Position numbers and translations under genes: made by a program
Shown here: in pieces, positions 11,716 to 29,502 of the stretch
Position numbering within the stretch: position 1 is the first letter of the stretch
How the letters are laid out: every line of letters begins with the position of its first letter
The notes under the pieces: model-generated
Database searches by the model: none
What the model saw: the letters and a program-made list of their open reading frames with translations, nothing else
Told to the model about the DNA's origin: nothing
DNA from: Magnetococcales bacterium HCHbin5
GTDB taxonomy: Bacteria > Pseudomonadota > Magnetococcia > Magnetococcales > Magnetaquicoccaceae
NCBI GenBank assembly: GCA_002753505.1
Contig: PEAG01000033.1
Coordinates: 1 to 36,890, forward strand
Direction: 5' to 3'
Length of the DNA: 36,890 bases

Positions 11716-11755
11716 TTTTCATTACATTCACAAGCATTTAACAATTATTTTACAA
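11716..11755 (+). promoter_or_regulatory. Double Pho box upstream of pstS
   Basis: Four 7-bp units at 11716, 11727, 11738 and 11749 (TTTTCAT, TTCACAA, TTAACAA, TTTACAA) are each separated by 4 bp. An 11-bp period of CTGTCAT/CTTACAT-like heptamers is the established architecture of PhoB binding sites. A possible -10 (TATGCT, 11787-11792) lies 31 bp downstream, farther than in E. coli, so the exact promoter is uncertain. Activation of the pst operon by phosphate starvation is inferred. Confidence 0.8.
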
Positions 11756-11809
11756 CAAAACAGGTTTGTTTGAGCCCGCATTCGTGTATGCTTTAGGCCA
11801 TGGATTTTT

Positions 11810-22389: not shown

Positions 22390-24177
22390 TCAGACAACCG
22401 AAAAATGCTCCACCTGAGAAACCGTAACCCAAAACAGCGTCCCATGGGGTAGCACAGCCTCCATGCCAACACTCTCCCCCATCTTTTCAGCCAGATGCTT
22501 GACAATCGAAAGTCCCAACCCTGTCCCTCCCATTTTGCGGGTCCGACCAGAATCGACCCGATAAAACCGTTCAAACAGACGATCCACATGCTGGGGCGCA
22601 ATCCCGGGACCATCGTCCAAAACCTCCAAACGATAACAGTTCACCGACCCGTTGAGCCGAACCCGGATTGAGGAGTTGGGCGGGATATATTTGACCGCAT
22701 TGTCCACAAAGTTGATCAATATCCGACGCATCGCCTCCGCATCGGCCCAGATGGAAACCCCGGCCGGCAGATCAATGTGCAAAGAGATCTCTTTCTCAAC
22801 CGCCGAAGCCCGGATCAGATCCATGACATCCTGTACCAAAGGCAACAAGGCCAACCGCTCCATATCCATGGGAAACTGGTCCGCCTCCAGCCGGGAAAGA
22901 TCCAACAGATCGGCAATAATGCGGGCCAAACGATTGGCATTGCGCTCCATGGCGGTGGCCAACACCCGGCGATACGCCGGATCTTCCATCGCATTGCCAA
23001 GAAGCGTCTGGGCATTGGCCTGAATGACACTGACCGGAGTACGCAACTCATGGGAAACATTGGCCACAAAATCACGCCGAATCGAATCCAATCGACGCTT
23101 CTCCGTCACATCCCGCAACACAACCACATGCCCCTGCCGTTCGTGCAGCGGGGTCATGACCGCCACCAACCGACGGGGGGTAGGCCCTTCCAGTTCAAAT
23201 TCGGTCGTGGAAGCGTCGAGCGGTTCCCGATCCGCCAACTCCAAATCCAACCCCAGATCTTCCAGCACCTGCGCCGGCAAAACAGTCACCAACGGCTTCC
23301 CATCCCACGGCTGGGACAGCCGCAACAGCTCCATGGCAGAACGGTTCATCAAGGTGATCGCATGCTGCTCATCCACCGCAATCACCCCTTCCCCCATGCT
23401 GTGCAACACGGTCGCCATCCTGGACTGTTCCGCCGACAGACGGGCCAACGTCTGATCTTTTTCCGCAGCCAGCAGATTCAGGGAGTCGGCCAAACCGGCC
23501 ATGGCATCATCCCCGCGCACATCAATCCGCGGAGCATGGACCGTTTTGGCCATTCCATGGGCCTGCTCGACCACATAACGCAGGGGGCGAAACACCCATT
23601 GGGCGGACAGATTGCTCAGGGAAAGACCGAAGAGGAGAAAAAGCAGGCCCGCTCCATACAACAGCCCGCGCAGGTGGGTATGGAGGAGAGAGAGATCTGC
23701 CAGCGAAATGGCGGCCCGAACCACACCATGGCCACCCTGTGGATGATTGAACGGCACCGCAATGACCAGCATGGAGTGGGTTGAGACGGTGGCCTCACTG
23801 GTCTCTTCGCCCGGACTCCCCTCCATGGCCTCCTGCACCTCGGGCATGGAGGCATACCCCCCCATGCCCTGCAGGGCCGTGCCATCCTCCTGGGAGTCCC
23901 CCAGCACCCGTCCATTGGCAGCAATGAAGGTGATGCGCACGGCGGGATCCTGGCCCAAGCGATTGGCCAACCGATCAACATTTTCCCTGTCCAGAGGCCA
24001 GGCTTCTGCCTCAATCAGGGTGCGACCAACCTGCGCAAAACGCCGCAACTCCGCCGTTATATGGCCATTCAACCACTCCCCCAGGGTCTCTTCCAGATAA
24101 AAACCCACAACAGCGACAGCGACGACGGTCAACAGAAGGAAGGGCAGGATGTAGCGAATGCGGATACCAAATATCAC
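22390..24177 (-). CDS. phoR: Phosphate sensor kinase PhoR (copy 1, phoB-linked)
   Basis: PhoR phosphorylates PhoB under phosphate limitation. I start at a GTG one base after the phoB stop, with CAGGAACGG as ribosome site; a start at 24285 would run deep into phoB. That gives 596 residues: span one (5-27), a periplasmic domain of about 140 residues, span two (168-189), HAMP-like linker, PAS (GEGVIAVDEQHAITLMN), HisKA with His376 (VSHELRTP) and ATPase ([36 protein letters not shown]). E. coli PhoR lacks such a periplasmic domain; Bacillus-type PhoR has one. It is closely similar over its full length to the second copy at 25366-27141. Confidence 0.93.
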   Translation of the reverse strand: MIFGIRIRYILPFLLLTVVAVAVVGFYLEETLGEWLNGHITAELRRFAQVGRTLIEAEAWPLDRENVDRLANRLGQDPAVRITFIAANGRVLGDSQEDGTALQGMGGYASMPEVQEAMEGSPGEETSEATVSTHSMLVIAVPFNHPQGGHGVVRAAISLADLSLLHTHLRGLLYGAGLLFLLFGLSLSNLSAQWVFRPLRYVVEQAHGMAKTVHAPRIDVRGDDAMAGLADSLNLLAAEKDQTLARLSAEQSRMATVLHSMGEGVIAVDEQHAITLMNRSAMELLRLSQPWDGKPLVTVLPAQVLEDLGLDLELADREPLDASTTEFELEGPTPRRLVAVMTPLHERQGHVVVLRDVTEKRRLDSIRRDFVANVSHELRTPVSVIQANAQTLLGNAMEDPAYRRVLATAMERNANRLARIIADLLDLSRLEADQFPMDMERLALLPLVQDVMDLIRASAVEKEISLHIDLPAGVSIWADAEAMRRILINFVDNAVKYIPPNSSIRVRLNGSVNCYRLEVLDDGPGIAPQHVDRLFERFYRVDSGRTRKMGGTGLGLSIVKHLAEKMGESVGMEAVLPHGTLFWVTVSQVEHFSVV

Positions 24178-24178
24178 G

Positions 24179-24883
24179 TCACCGTTCCTGTGGATGTTCT
24201 CGAAAACGATAGCCAATATTACGAACCGTCTCGATGGCATCTCCCATGACACCCAACTTTTCTCGCAACCGCTTGACATGGACATCGACGGTACGGGTCT
24301 GGATGGCCGTGTTTTGCACGTTCCAGACCTTGGTCAGCAAAGTGTCGCGGGACTGCACCCGCCCTTTGTGGGTCAGCAGCAGATCCAGCAATTTGAACTC
24401 CATGGAGGTCAAGAGGGTCTCCTGTTCGTCCACCCAGACCTGATGCCGCTTGCGGTCCATCTTGAGGGCGTCAAACACCACCAGGGACTCCTCTGCCGGC
24501 TGGCTTTGCGAACCGCTGCGGCGCAGAATGGCGCGCACACGCAGCAACAGCTCTCGCACATTAAAGGGCTTGACCACATAGTCGTCTGCACCCAATTCAA
24601 AGCCAACCACCCGATCGATATCCTCGCTTTTGGCACTGAGAAAGAGTACGGGGGTGTTACGGGTGCGCTCGTGGGAGCGCAGCCGATGGCATACCTCTAT
24701 GCCGGACATGCCAGGCAGCATAATATCCAGGATGGCCAAGTCGGGCGGCCCCTGCTGCATGGCCCACTCCAACCCTTCCTCGCCACTCTGGAATGGATAG
24801 ACCTGATATCCCTCGTGTTTCAGGTTATATTCCAGCGTCGTTAACAGATCTTCCTCGTCCTCGACAATTAAAATATTAGCCAT
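24179..24883 (-). CDS. phoB: Phosphate regulon response regulator PhoB
   Basis: OmpR-family regulator of 234 residues. The receiver has the acidic pocket EDEE (8-11), phospho-acceptor Asp53 (ILDIMLPGMSG), the switch serine in LSAKSE and Lys in KPFNVRELLLR. The winged-helix domain ends with the recognition region TRTVDVHVKRLREKLG and the hairpin IETVRNIGYRF. It directly precedes phoR1 (GTG one base after the stop). The 226 bp to the small ORF upstream hold no further convincing gene. The heptamer repeats found at four sites in this window are its likely targets. Confidence 0.94.
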   Translation of the reverse strand: MANILIVEDEEDLLTTLEYNLKHEGYQVYPFQSGEEGLEWAMQQGPPDLAILDIMLPGMSGIEVCHRLRSHERTRNTPVLFLSAKSEDIDRVVGFELGADDYVVKPFNVRELLLRVRAILRRSGSQSQPAEESLVVFDALKMDRKRHQVWVDEQETLLTSMEFKLLDLLLTHKGRVQSRDTLLTKVWNVQNTAIQTRTVDVHVKRLREKLGVMGDAIETVRNIGYRFREHPQER

Positions 24884-25109
24884 TTCATAATGTTATCCAT
24901 GCGATGCCGGAGGGAAAAGCCAACATACACAGGGAACTCAAAACCACAAGGAACCCCGTGCAAATGGGTATACCCAGGCCATACAACGTCCCAGGCACAC
25001 CCAGCACGGCCATTGTCTACCATTCATGCGTCAAACAGCAAGCAAGTCCGAAGTCCGCGCACGCTTTTCTTTGCAGCGTGGCGACTGCAGTGGCCGCCAT
25101 TTTTATCCG
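24884..25109. other. Intergenic region between phoB and the small ORF
   Basis: 226 bp with no convincing gene. It holds a 16-bp near-palindrome, GGCGACTGCAGTGGCC (25080-25095), 14 bp beyond the small ORF stop, and a weak phoB leader in which the nearest purine-rich ribosome site (GGA) is 13 bases before the ATG. An extra promoter or RNA structure is possible but not clear. Confidence 0.4.
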
Positions 25110-25217
25110 TCATTGCCCGACAACATGACCGTTACGGCGATAATCACGACGGTTAAAATACAAATATCCACCCACAACAACCGCTGCAAATACAATCGAC
25201 GACGCGACGATAACCAT
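25110..25217 (-). CDS. 35-residue single-span membrane small protein
   Basis: An ATG at 25217 follows GGGGAG by 9 bases and opens 35 codons ending TGA at 25110. The product starts MVIVASSIVFAAVVVGGYLYF, a clean single transmembrane helix (residues 2-21), then NRRDYRRNG, a basic tail that should lie in the cytoplasm. It is too short for ordinary ORF cut-offs. It sits between phoR2 and phoB on the same strand and downstream of a Pho-box-like pair, so it is likely in the phoB transcript. By analogy with small membrane modulators of sensor kinases (MgrB on PhoQ) it could act on one of the PhoR proteins; that is inference. Expression is unproven. Confidence 0.65.
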   Translation of the reverse strand: MVIVASSIVFAAVVVGGYLYFNRRDYRRNGHVVGQ

Positions 25218-25351
25218 TGTTGATCTCCCCTGTTGATAATGATGTGGAAAACATGATTACAGGGTAACGGAGCCATTGACCAACAAGCAAGCAATTTATT
25301 GTTAATTATTAATACGTTATTTATTAAGAAGCCTTCAAAAAACCTGCATGA

Positions 25352-25369
25352 TTGTCGATAAATTGTCAC
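25352..25369 (-). promoter_or_regulatory. Pho-box-like pair upstream of small ORF-phoB-phoR1
   Basis: On the minus strand GTGACAA (25369-25363), four bases, then TCGACAA (25358-25352): two units at 11-bp spacing matching the local consensus (T/G)TNACA(A/T). It overlaps the stop codon of phoR2. Read on the plus strand, TTGTCGATAAATTGTCAC also resembles the E. coli Pho box, so orientation is not certain. The AT-rich stretch 25295-25330 downstream would hold the promoter. Autoregulation of phoB is expected from the family. Confidence 0.55.
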
Positions 25370-27141
25370 AGATCCGTATCAGACACAGTGGAAAGCGTCA
25401 CCCAAAACAGCGAACCATGCGGCTTGACATCCTCCATGCCAACCTTCTCCCCCATCTTCTCAGCCAAATGCCTGACAATGGCCAGCCCCAACCCTGTCCC
25501 ACCCATTTTGCGGGAACGGCCGGAATCCACCCGATAAAACCGCTCAAACAACCGCCCCCAATGCTGCGGCGCGATCCCGGCACCGTTGTCAACCACCTCC
25601 AACCGTATCCGCCCTTGACAAGGCGTGCTGCGCACGACGATCCGCGATTGAGTGGGAATATATTTGACCGCATTGTCAAGAAAATTGGATAAAATGCGCC
25701 GCACCACCTCCGTGTCCGCATACACACGCAAATCCGGCAAAATTTCCACCTGGATGGCAATCTGCTTGTCATCGGCCGCCGTCTGTATCAACGCCACCAC
25801 CTCCTGCACAACAGGCAACAGATAAAAATGTTCCAACTCCATGGCAAACTGGTTCGCTTCCAGACGGGAAAGCTCCAACAGGTCGGAAATAATCTGCGCC
25901 AGGCGACTGGCATTGCGCTCCACGGCATCCACCAGAACACGGTTGTAACCTTGCTCCTCCAACGCCCCATCCAGCAACGTCTGCGCATTGGCCTGAATGA
26001 TACTGACCGGCGTGCGCAATTCATGAGAAACATTGGCGACAAAATCCCGCCGCATCAAATCCAGCCGACGCCGCTCCGTCACATCCCGCAATACAATGAG
26101 ATGCCCTTCATGCTCATACAGAGGGGTCATCACCGCCACCACCCGCTGCAGCACAACACCATCCCAATCAAATTCCACACTGAACGGTTGCATCGGCAAC
26201 GGCTCCAATGCCAACCTCAACTCAGCCACCACGTAGGCCGGCAACAAGGCCGCAATGGGTTGGCCAATGGACGGGCTGGACAGACCCAGCAGCTCCAATA
26301 CCGAGCGGTTCATCAGTGTCACCCGCCCCGCCCTATCCAAGGCAATCACCCCCTCCGTCATGCTCTGCAGTACAGTGGCCAACTGGGATTTTTGTTCCGA
26401 CAACAGGGCCAATGTCTCATGCTTTTCTGCCGCCAACAGATTGAGAGAGCTGGCCAGACCCGCCATGGCGTCGTTGGCATGAACCTGAATGCGGGGTGCA
26501 GCAGCCGAATGGACCATGCGCTGGGCACAGGCCATGATATACCGCTGGGTGTTGGTGGCCCAATGGGCCGAAAAACCACCCAGGGAAAGCGCGGTTATGA
26601 CAGCAATCAGGCCGGCCACAAACAGGGCCAGGTTCAAACGATTGTTGATCGATTCCACACTCTCTATCGCAATGGCAACCCGCACCACACCCCGCTCCCC
26701 CAGGGGATGGTGAAAAGAGACCGCCACGTACAACATGGAGCGGGAAAGCGTCGCAGAGTAGTGTTTGCTCTGGCCAAAACCATCTCGCATTGCTGTAACA
26801 ACTTCAGGTCTTTTGCCATGATTTTCCATGGTGCGCAGTGCCTCCCCCTGCCGTTGCGAATCCCCCAGCACCACCCCATCCTCACCAATCAGGCTGACGC
26901 GAATTTCCGGATCCTGACCCAACAGGTTGGCCAACGGGTCCAACCGTTCCATGGTCAACGGCGTCTCCTGGCTCTCAACGAAGGCACGTCCGACCATCGC
27001 ATGGCGACGCAACTCCGCCACCAACTGCGACTCCAGCCAATCCCCCAGGGCATACTCCAGATAGATATCCGCCGTCAGAATGGCGGCAAACACCAACAAC
27101 AGAAAAGACAAAATATATTTGCCGCGAATGTCGAGTGCCAT
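25366..27141 (-). CDS. phoR: Second PhoR-type phosphate sensor kinase (copy 2)
   Basis: A 591-residue paralogue of phoR1 with the same plan: span one (about 8-28), periplasmic domain of about 140 residues, span two (169-189), HAMP-like linker, PAS (EGVIALDRAGRVTLMN), HisKA with His373 (VSHELRTP) and ATPase (FLDNAVKYIP, DNGAGIAP, GGTGLGLAIVRHLAEKMG). Both copies keep all catalytic motifs; most divergence is in the periplasmic part. AAGGAAA precedes the ATG. No response regulator of its own lies next to it; phoB is the nearest, after the small ORF. It probably arose by duplication, allowing two inputs to one regulator. Cross-talk with PhoB is inferred. Confidence 0.92.
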   Translation of the reverse strand: MALDIRGKYILSFLLLVFAAILTADIYLEYALGDWLESQLVAELRRHAMVGRAFVESQETPLTMERLDPLANLLGQDPEIRVSLIGEDGVVLGDSQRQGEALRTMENHGKRPEVVTAMRDGFGQSKHYSATLSRSMLYVAVSFHHPLGERGVVRVAIAIESVESINNRLNLALFVAGLIAVITALSLGGFSAHWATNTQRYIMACAQRMVHSAAAPRIQVHANDAMAGLASSLNLLAAEKHETLALLSEQKSQLATVLQSMTEGVIALDRAGRVTLMNRSVLELLGLSSPSIGQPIAALLPAYVVAELRLALEPLPMQPFSVEFDWDGVVLQRVVAVMTPLYEHEGHLIVLRDVTERRRLDLMRRDFVANVSHELRTPVSIIQANAQTLLDGALEEQGYNRVLVDAVERNASRLAQIISDLLELSRLEANQFAMELEHFYLLPVVQEVVALIQTAADDKQIAIQVEILPDLRVYADTEVVRRILSNFLDNAVKYIPTQSRIVVRSTPCQGRIRLEVVDNGAGIAPQHWGRLFERFYRVDSGRSRKMGGTGLGLAIVRHLAEKMGEKVGMEDVKPHGSLFWVTLSTVSDTDL

Positions 27142-27451: not shown

Positions 27452-28150
27452 TCAGGAAATTTTCACCACGATGTCGTGCAAAAAGTTGCCGGCCCGGGAC
27501 AACTCATGACCCGCATCCGACAGATGCCGATAGATTTCCCGCCGTTTAAAAATTTCCAACACATAACCCATGGCCTCCATTTTGGCTTCCGGGGCATCTG
27601 TTTTCAGTTTGTTCATCAGAGAATCCGCATTGAACAGCTCGGCCAGGGCGCGACGAAACGCCTTGTCCAGGGTATGCTTGGCCTGCACAGCCACCTGGGC
27701 ATCCGCCTCCGCCAGCGCAGTCTCTTTGGTACCCAATTTTTTATAGCCGCGATGCAAAGCCTCATTGGCCTCCCGAATCAGGATCGCCATCTCGGTGGTA
27801 AACTGGCCCGATTTGATGTTCAGCGTCTGCATCTCCTGCACAATCGTAGAGGCATAGGTCAGCGTCACCCCGACCGACATGATGGCCCGTTGCAAATCTT
27901 CCCGATCCAGGGGGGTGGCAAAGGCATTGGCCAACACGCCCAGGTTGCGCACTTTCAGAACATCTTCCTCCCCATCCAACCGGATCACCTTGTCAGCCGC
28001 CGCTTTGCTGCCCGTCTGCATAAACTCCACCAGGGCATCCGAAGCCTGCGAGATCAGTTCGCACTGCTCCAGGATCATGCCATAAAAGTTGGGCATCCGG
28101 GGGAAAACCGCATTGGTGATACCACTGATGAATGAATTACTGCCGCCCAT
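27452..28150 (-). CDS. DUF47/PhoU-like accessory protein of the PiT transporter
   Basis: A 232-residue all-helical protein of the DUF47 (TIGR00153-like, PhoU-related) family, which commonly pairs with PiT carriers and modulates them. Recognisable parts are FPRMPNFYGMILEQCELI near the N-terminus, and the terminal EIYRHLSDAGHELSRAGNFLHDIVVKIS, where conserved Asp and His residues match the metal-binding helices of PhoU relatives. A strong AAGGAG ribosome site precedes the ATG. It follows pit by 81 bp; in many genomes the order is reversed. Together with phoU at 12866 this gives two PhoU-fold regulators in one locus. Confidence 0.88.
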   Translation of the reverse strand: MGGSNSFISGITNAVFPRMPNFYGMILEQCELISQASDALVEFMQTGSKAAADKVIRLDGEEDVLKVRNLGVLANAFATPLDREDLQRAIMSVGVTLTYASTIVQEMQTLNIKSGQFTTEMAILIREANEALHRGYKKLGTKETALAEADAQVAVQAKHTLDKAFRRALAELFNADSLMNKLKTDAPEAKMEAMGYVLEIFKRREIYRHLSDAGHELSRAGNFLHDIVVKIS

Positions 28151-28231: not shown

Positions 28232-29281
28232 CTAGCCAACACCGAGCAGGTGATGCGCAACGACAAACGAGAGCCCACCCACCAGACCAGAGCCGGGAAT
28301 GGTGATCAACCAGGTGCTGACAATCTCCGAAGCCTTGCTCCAGCGCACATCCTTGGGCAACTCCGAAGTACCGATACCCATGATGGTCGAACTGGTCACA
28401 TGGGTGGTGGAGACGGGCAGACCAAACTGGGAGGCACCCAGGATCAACGAGGCAGAGGCCAACTGCGAATCCATGGCGTGCAAGGGCCGCACTTTGTAGA
28501 TACCAAAACCGACCGTCCGCACAATCCGCCAACCACCGGAAAGAATCCCCAGCGTGATGACGATGGAGCAGGCCAACATCACCCAGAACGGCACCTCAAA
28601 CTTGGGAATAAAGCCCCCCAGCACCAGGATCAACGTCACAATACCCATGCTCTTCTGGGCATCGTTGGAACCATGGGAAAAGGCCAGCGCGGCGGTCGTG
28701 ATAAACTGCATCCGCTTCAAGCCGATGTTGATCGTGGGTTTGGCCGCCGCCAGTATCAACCGCATAAAGCGATGCAACAAAAACCCCACCCAGAAACCTG
28801 CGACCGGCGAGATGATGAGCGCGGCCACCACCTTGACCACCCCATTCAATTTATGGTTCACGACCAAATCCTGCATACCCCAGATGACATGATCCGCACC
28901 CGCCGCAACGAGTACTGCGCCAACCAGTCCACCCACCAGAGCGTGCGAAGAGGAAGAAGGAATGCCAAACCACCAGGTGAGCAGGTTCCAGAAGATGGAA
29001 CCCAACATGCCGCATAACACGACGGTCATTGAGACAATGACATGTAGATCCTTGATGTCGACAATTTTACCGATCGTGTTGGCCACCGCCGTACCGCCCA
29101 ACAAAGGCCCCATAAACTCGAAGATGGCTACCACAACCACCGATTGAACGGGCGTCATCGCCCGCGACGCGATCACAGTCCCCACAATGTTGGAGGCATC
29201 GTGAAAACCATTCGTGTAGTCAAAGATTAAAACAACCACCACTGTGGCAATGGCTAAATTGGTTATCAGATCGCTACCCAT
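28232..29281 (-). CDS. pit: Inorganic phosphate transporter, PiT family
   Basis: PiT carriers move metal-phosphate with protons or sodium across the inner membrane, with lower affinity than Pst. The 349-residue protein has about ten spans in two inverted halves, each with a family signature: FDYTNGFHDASNIVGTVIAS near residue 20 and FSHGSNDAQKSMGIV near 203. PSSSSHALVGGLVGA and LPVSTTHVTSSTIMG are the conserved Ser/Thr-His loops of the two halves. AAAGGTGAG precedes the ATG. A double Pho box lies 180-220 bp upstream. Whether PhoB activates or represses pit differs between bacteria, so the sign is not predicted here. Confidence 0.95.
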   Translation of the reverse strand: MGSDLITNLAIATVVVVLIFDYTNGFHDASNIVGTVIASRAMTPVQSVVVVAIFEFMGPLLGGTAVANTIGKIVDIKDLHVIVSMTVVLCGMLGSIFWNLLTWWFGIPSSSSHALVGGLVGAVLVAAGADHVIWGMQDLVVNHKLNGVVKVVAALIISPVAGFWVGFLLHRFMRLILAAAKPTINIGLKRMQFITTAALAFSHGSNDAQKSMGIVTLILVLGGFIPKFEVPFWVMLACSIVITLGILSGGWRIVRTVGFGIYKVRPLHAMDSQLASASLILGASQFGLPVSTTHVTSSTIMGIGTSELPKDVRWSKASEIVSTWLITIPGSGLVGGLSFVVAHHLLGVG

Positions 29282-29462
29282 GTCTCACCTTTTAGTTTCC
29301 TTTTTCCTGTTAGCTGTGGAATATGTTTTTTTAACCGATGGCACACCGACGTTCCAAACCTGCCCTGAACCCGACACAAAAAGCCCGAACCAAAAAACGT
29401 GAAGGAAGCATAATCGAGATTGTAAATAATGCAAACAAAATTATGAAGAAAATATGAATTTT

Positions 29463-29502
29463 TTGTTACGCAAATGTAAATTTTATGTAAACTGAATGTG
29501 AC
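29463..29502 (-). promoter_or_regulatory. Double Pho box upstream of pit
   Basis: On the minus strand, units GTCACAT, TTTACAT, TTTACAT and GTAACAA follow each other with 4-bp gaps (TCAG, AAAA, TTGC), giving a strict 11-bp period over 40 bp. CATATT and CATAAT hexamers follow within 7-25 bp towards pit and could serve as a -10. The pit start codon is about 180 bp downstream, so a long leader is implied. Confidence 0.82.

Follow-up and report, generated by a model that had tools for sequence, protein, structure and literature searches.

A 35-residue single-span membrane protein gene with a putative Pho-type promoter in one genus of the Magnetococcales

Between the genes phoR1 and phoB of Magnetococcales bacterium HCHbin5, the minus strand almost certainly carries a real gene, unannotated until now: a frame of 35 codons (the smORF) encoding a small membrane protein, which, judging from sequence comparison within the genus, is conserved together with a promoter resembling those of pstS and pit. 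Our preferred reading, held tentatively and with somewhat less than even confidence, is that the smORF is a stand-alone PhoB-regulon gene, encoding an N-out/C-in microprotein that would be made in starvation and would adjust a membrane protein of phosphate homeostasis, PhoR1 being the first candidate and Pit the second. The window referred to below is the whole stretch of DNA analysed, 36,890 nucleotides of contig PEAG01000033.1.

The small gene and its relatives

25110–25217, minus strand: smORF, 35-codon small membrane protein gene, ATG start, TGA stop, protein MVIVASSIVFAAVVVGGYLYFNRRDYRRNGHVVGQ
same frame, protein level: span at about residues 2–20, tail NRRDYRRNGHVVGQ, predicted N-out/C-in
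25224–25230, minus strand: Shine-Dalgarno sequence GGGGAGA, 6 nt before the smORF ATG

The protein consists of one hydrophobic span followed by a basic tail, with a net charge of 0 over the first eight residues and of +3 over the tail. The N-out/C-in orientation is predicted by the positive-inside rule, because the amino-terminus is uncharged and the tail basic; in the G006 homologue, the tail contains five histidines and has no net charge. An AlphaFold2 model contains a single helix from residue 2 to residue 33, with pLDDT values of 92–93 over residues 1–20, and is uninformative as to function. When both strands of the window were searched for frames of 28–60 codons with a Shine-Dalgarno sequence and a TM value of at least 2.3, the smORF was the sole candidate, and a comparable frame appeared in 7 of 2000 dinucleotide shuffles of its 482-bp intergenic region. 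The first-pass annotation had described an unannotated 35-residue membrane protein with a ribosome site, a single span and a basic tail; the sequence confirms each of these features.

Relatives of 33–35 amino acids are present in five of the seven genomes of the genus, six copies in all (G000, G001, G003, G006 and, twice, G002). They are 38–60% identical to the protein of the window, their frames are intact and a Shine-Dalgarno-like site precedes every one of them. The family consensus is MxIVLASVVFAVVVVAGYWYFNHRDYRHN, with an aromatic and basic tail (consensus GYWYFNHRDYRHN). Across all 15 pairs, pN/pS lies between 0.23 and 0.66, and synonymous changes are in excess in three pairs (p = 0.007, 0.0005 and 0.01); by these measures, the protein is under purifying selection. 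The conserved frame, ribosome site and synonymous bias anticipated in relatives were thus found, with no frame break or lost ribosome site that would speak against the gene, while two of the seven genomes have no detectable copy. Such absences, and a length of just 35 codons, are what a chance frame might lead one to expect, but that reading is very improbable, contradicted as it already is by the conservation of frame, Shine-Dalgarno sequence and promoter and by the synonymous bias.

The family was not found outside the genus, whether among the other genomes of the order or across the remainder of a 398-genome sample of the phylum. Matches in G008 and G013, of a sister genus, were discarded: they cover the span only and belong to frames about 220 codons long. 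The smORF protein has no match above cut-off in Pfam, NCBIfam or PHROGs. By these searches, the smORF proteins are a new family without a profile match, restricted to one genus; as a kind, single-span microproteins encoded within regulons are already known.

The promoter of the smORF

25252–25326, minus strand: conserved smORF promoter block, common to the G001, G002, G003 and G006 copies in alignments
25261–25266, minus strand: -10-like TACCCT, separated by 30 nt from the Pho-box-like site upstream and coinciding in the alignment with the TATNCT of relatives
25297–25318, minus strand: proximal Pho-box-like site AACGTATTAATAATTAACAATA, degenerate in the window, strong in relatives
25350–25371, minus strand: distal 11-bp-spaced pair CTGTGACAATTTATCGACAATC, overlapping the end of phoR1, weak
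11736–11792, plus strand: pstS promoter, used in training the Pho matrix; box and TATGCT separated by 29 nt

The 75 bp upstream of the smORF align across G000, G001, G002, G003 and G006. Leave-one-out searches recovered the smORF promoters with z values of 10.6–12.9, the window reaching 6.2 and the second G002 copy (contig C82) 4.0. From this conservation, the smORF appears to have its own promoter, which travels with the gene.

In this genus, pstS promoters are composed of a 22-bp box (two 11-bp repeats around T(T/A)ACAA), 29 nt and TATNNT. A matrix trained on six pstS promoters, without any smORF but with a spacing window chosen in knowledge of the smORF sites, was run over both strands of about 200 kb of sequence from the genus. 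Outside the training set, its best matches were pit promoters (27.9, 23.9 and 22.1) and the smORF promoters of G006 (23.6), G003 (19.8) and G002 (19.6), with G001 lower (17.4). Dinucleotide shuffles of the respective upstream regions reached these smORF scores 0, 0, 5 and 2 times per 1000, the four strong promoters being homologous to one another and so not independent samples. Their geometry is identical to that of pst and pit promoters (a 22-bp box of 11-bp repeats, 29–30 nt, TATNCT). The pattern TTWACAANAN{28,30}TATNNT, written after the sites had been seen, has 17 matches in the seven whole genomes, among them four smORF, four pstS and one pit promoter. Conversely, a model built from the smORF promoters finds, beyond the smORFs, the G002 pit promoter (E 4.7e-4); a weak match (E 0.12) lies at the front of a PhoU_div-pit pair in the genome to which the window belongs. 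The core TTTAACAACATAATT was rejected as a general regulon word, occurring exactly at two smORFs only.

Promoters of the pstS and pit type of the same genus are thus strong at the G001, G002, G003 and G006 copies and weak at the copies of the window and of G002 C82. In the latter, the score is 12.8, reached by 80 of 1000 shuffles. In the window, the proximal site (25318–25297) has a box score of 10.3 and, with its -10, a score of 11.9, reached by 72 of 1000 shuffles. The first-pass annotation had placed the smORF behind a Pho-box-like pair. An 11-bp-spaced pair does exist at 25371–25350, similar to that of E. coli, but it scores poorly (7.8, a value matched by 0.05% of positions with the matrix from the genus's own pstS promoters) and was rejected as the main Pho box; the proximal site is better, though itself weak.

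Taken across the genus, these promoter sequences make Pho control of the smORF highly probable. For the copy in the window, homology to the strong promoters is clear and control by PhoB is only likely. The proposed connection with phosphate is therefore borne out, through the match to pstS and pit promoters rather than through location: the copies of G003 and G006 keep a Pho-type promoter beside crcB, away from pho genes.

The pit promoters themselves have tandem 11-bp repeats (TGTAACA/TTTACA type), an extended Pho-box array, in the window (29440–29500) and in loci L059 and L054, where up to five repeats precede pit. In locus L057 (G002 C13, about 10155–10048, minus strand), another 35-codon frame, MCILCYPLFYVFNTLYAGDRHNPDVQTQFSRKWRQ, with a strong Shine-Dalgarno sequence and no Pfam match, separates pit from a strong Pho-type promoter (score 27.9). 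A smORF-like promoter (E 2.4e-5) is present at a contig edge in L145 (G001 C148, 19–92, minus strand), and the gene cut off there could be a further copy.

Neighbourhood in the window and in relatives

22390–24285, minus strand: phoR2, the second sensor kinase (55% identity with phoR1); translation probably begins near 24168
24179–24883, minus strand: phoB, response regulator (receiver and winged helix by Pfam; best NCBIfam match PhoB, below its cut-off)
25005–25046, minus strand: promoter-like block of phoB itself, CTTGCTTGCTGTTTG..GAATGGTAGACAATGGCC, with conservation in G001 and at both phoB genes of G002
25366–27141, minus strand: phoR1, PnpS/PhoR-type sensor kinase (Pfam/NCBIfam)
27452–28150, minus strand: PhoU_div/DUF47-like pit accessory (Pfam, below cut-off)
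28232–29281, minus strand: pit, phosphate transporter (PHO4), Pho-type 11-bp repeats upstream

In the direction of transcription, the minus strand of the window contains pit, the DUF47/PhoU_div-like gene, phoR1, the smORF, phoB and phoR2. On the plus strand, at the other side of the window, are pstS, a PhoU-like gene, pstC, pstA, two pstB genes, and genes for a GGDEF protein and a hybrid kinase. A search of the genome contigs with PhoR1 gave one distant kinase only. Sequence comparison places the promoter-like block of phoB between the smORF and the phoB start. The phoB leader of the window contains a very stable hairpin (24956–25009, minus strand, −33.5 kcal/mol), with a smaller one at the same place in G002 C13. 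A short stretch of phoR2 (22418–22527) is 83% identical in DNA to phoR1 (25391–25500), in kinases that are 55% identical in protein, possibly a trace of gene conversion.

The location of the smORF changes between relatives. The order is phoR1-smORF-phoB in the window, PhoU_div-smORF-phoR1-phoB in G001 and smORF-phoB, then pit, in G002 C13. In G003 and G006, the smORF adjoins crcB within a cheW/MCP locus, with no pho genes in the stretches read; in G002 C82, it lies between an HD-GYP response regulator gene and a phage tail gene. The phoR-phoB cluster is therefore one of several sites, and location alone is no argument for PhoR. The earlier view of the smORF as a part of that cluster, and hence tied to PhoR, does not hold: the gene has other neighbours at three of its sites and a promoter block of its own. 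In G003, G004 and G006, phoR1 and phoB are almost adjacent. Within the genus, the resolution of the phoR1 and phoB trees is too low for the moves of the smORF to be dated. The copies of G001 and G006 are followed by strong hairpins and none is found close behind the window's copy, so a downstream terminator was rejected as a constant part of the unit.

The phoR1-phoB gap of G005 (L060, 6567–6981) contains instead a gene for a small membrane protein resembling CCDC90 (PF07798, E 5e-6, below cut-off), and a frame similar to it follows phoB in G002 (L059, 11062–11289), suggesting that the region may take up small genes repeatedly.

Possible function

On the preferred reading, phosphate starvation would lead PhoB to bind the 11-bp-repeat box 29–30 nt upstream of the -10 hexamer, and the short mRNA made in this way would yield the 35-residue single-span protein. 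The protein would insert N-out/C-in, its aromatic and basic tail at the cytoplasmic face, and would most likely make contact in trans with a membrane component of phosphate homeostasis, damping or adjusting it through span and tail. By analogy with known small proteins, the first candidate partner is PhoR1, which may receive negative feedback as PhoQ does from MgrB, and the second is the Pit transporter, which may be affected as has been proposed for PitA and MgtS. Our slight preference for PhoR over Pit follows from the logic of feedback within a regulon and from the close proximity seen in three genomes; the results themselves do not discriminate between the two. No copy was detected in G004 and G005, although both have PhoR1, PhoB and a pit gene; the smORF is therefore not essential to either partner. 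In a more specific form, the family would be an MgrB-like feedback arm, a movable unit of gene and Pho promoter whose cytoplasmic tail shifts a PnpS-type PhoR to a new balance of kinase and phosphatase activity; this we consider possible but doubtful.

MgrB of enterobacteria, 47 residues long, is encoded in the regulon of PhoQ, the kinase that it inhibits (PMC8404706). The smORF protein resembles it as a small single-span protein of a two-component regulon, feedback on a sensor kinase being only proposed here. MgrB is oriented N-in/C-out, with two important periplasmic cysteines, whereas the smORF protein is predicted N-out/C-in, has none of these cysteines and is part of the phosphate system. 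It cannot be assigned to the MgrB family: five of the six homologues have no cysteine at all, and neither Pfam nor NCBIfam gives a match. MgtS answers to magnesium limitation, in contrast to the Pho-type promoter of the smORF. With 31 residues, it is thought to inhibit PitA and has been reported to stabilise MgtA (reviewed in PMC10710835). By this description, the likeness lies in the size of about 30 residues, the single span and a carrier of the same family (PiT) encoded near the smORF in three genomes. Small DUF1127 proteins of Agrobacterium, and YjiS of E. coli, were reported to bind PhoR (PMC12501420). They share with the smORF protein a size under about 55 residues, positive charge and a relation to phosphate, PhoR contact being reported for the DUF1127 proteins; unlike them, the smORF protein contains a membrane span, and its gene has a Pho-type promoter of its own. 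DUF1127 (PF06568) is absent among the Pfam matches of four homologues up to E = 1.

A Pho-regulon protein might also act on transporters rather than on PhoR, damping the low-affinity Pit or stabilising Pst. MgtS and PitA provide a precedent (PMC10710835), pit and the smORF have a promoter type in common and the two genes are near each other in the window, G001 and G002. Yet the two genes are far apart in G003 and G006, and no smORF was detected in G004, which does have pit; we regard this reading as rather unlikely. An action on the membrane itself, as a type I toxin-like or holin-like peptide whose copies spread and brought the Pho promoter with them, is improbable. Its size and its span followed by a basic tail resemble such peptides, G002 has two copies, one copy is near a phage tail gene, the location changes and the G001 protein has a sub-threshold holin match (E 0.008). 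Against this, PHROGs matches are all weak, no profile of a phage holin or type I toxin matches above cut-off and no relative occurs in phage records, plasmid records or viral contigs; the short leader with its strong Shine-Dalgarno sequence is unlike a masked toxin mRNA, and an unsystematic look identified no antisense partner. Even less probable is that the main role of the unit in the window is to supply phoB with a Pho-dependent promoter and a leader cistron, read-through into phoB giving it positive autoregulation. All three pho-locus copies do lie upstream of phoB or phoR1-phoB in the same orientation, and no strong hairpin directly follows the smORF in the window, but phoB has its own conserved promoter-like block, selection acts on the smORF protein sequence itself and, for the copies adjoining crcB, there is no phoB that they could drive.

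Annotation overlooks the small membrane proteins by which kinases and transporters are adjusted. For the smORF, neighbourhood taken by itself was misleading, and the sound argument came from comparing promoters among relocated copies. Since the smORF has a readable regulatory address, both the condition (phosphate starvation) and the candidate partners (PhoR and Pit) are directly testable. Should PhoR prove to be the target of the protein, the phosphate system would have a feedback peptide comparable to MgrB, transmembrane and encoded within the regulon.
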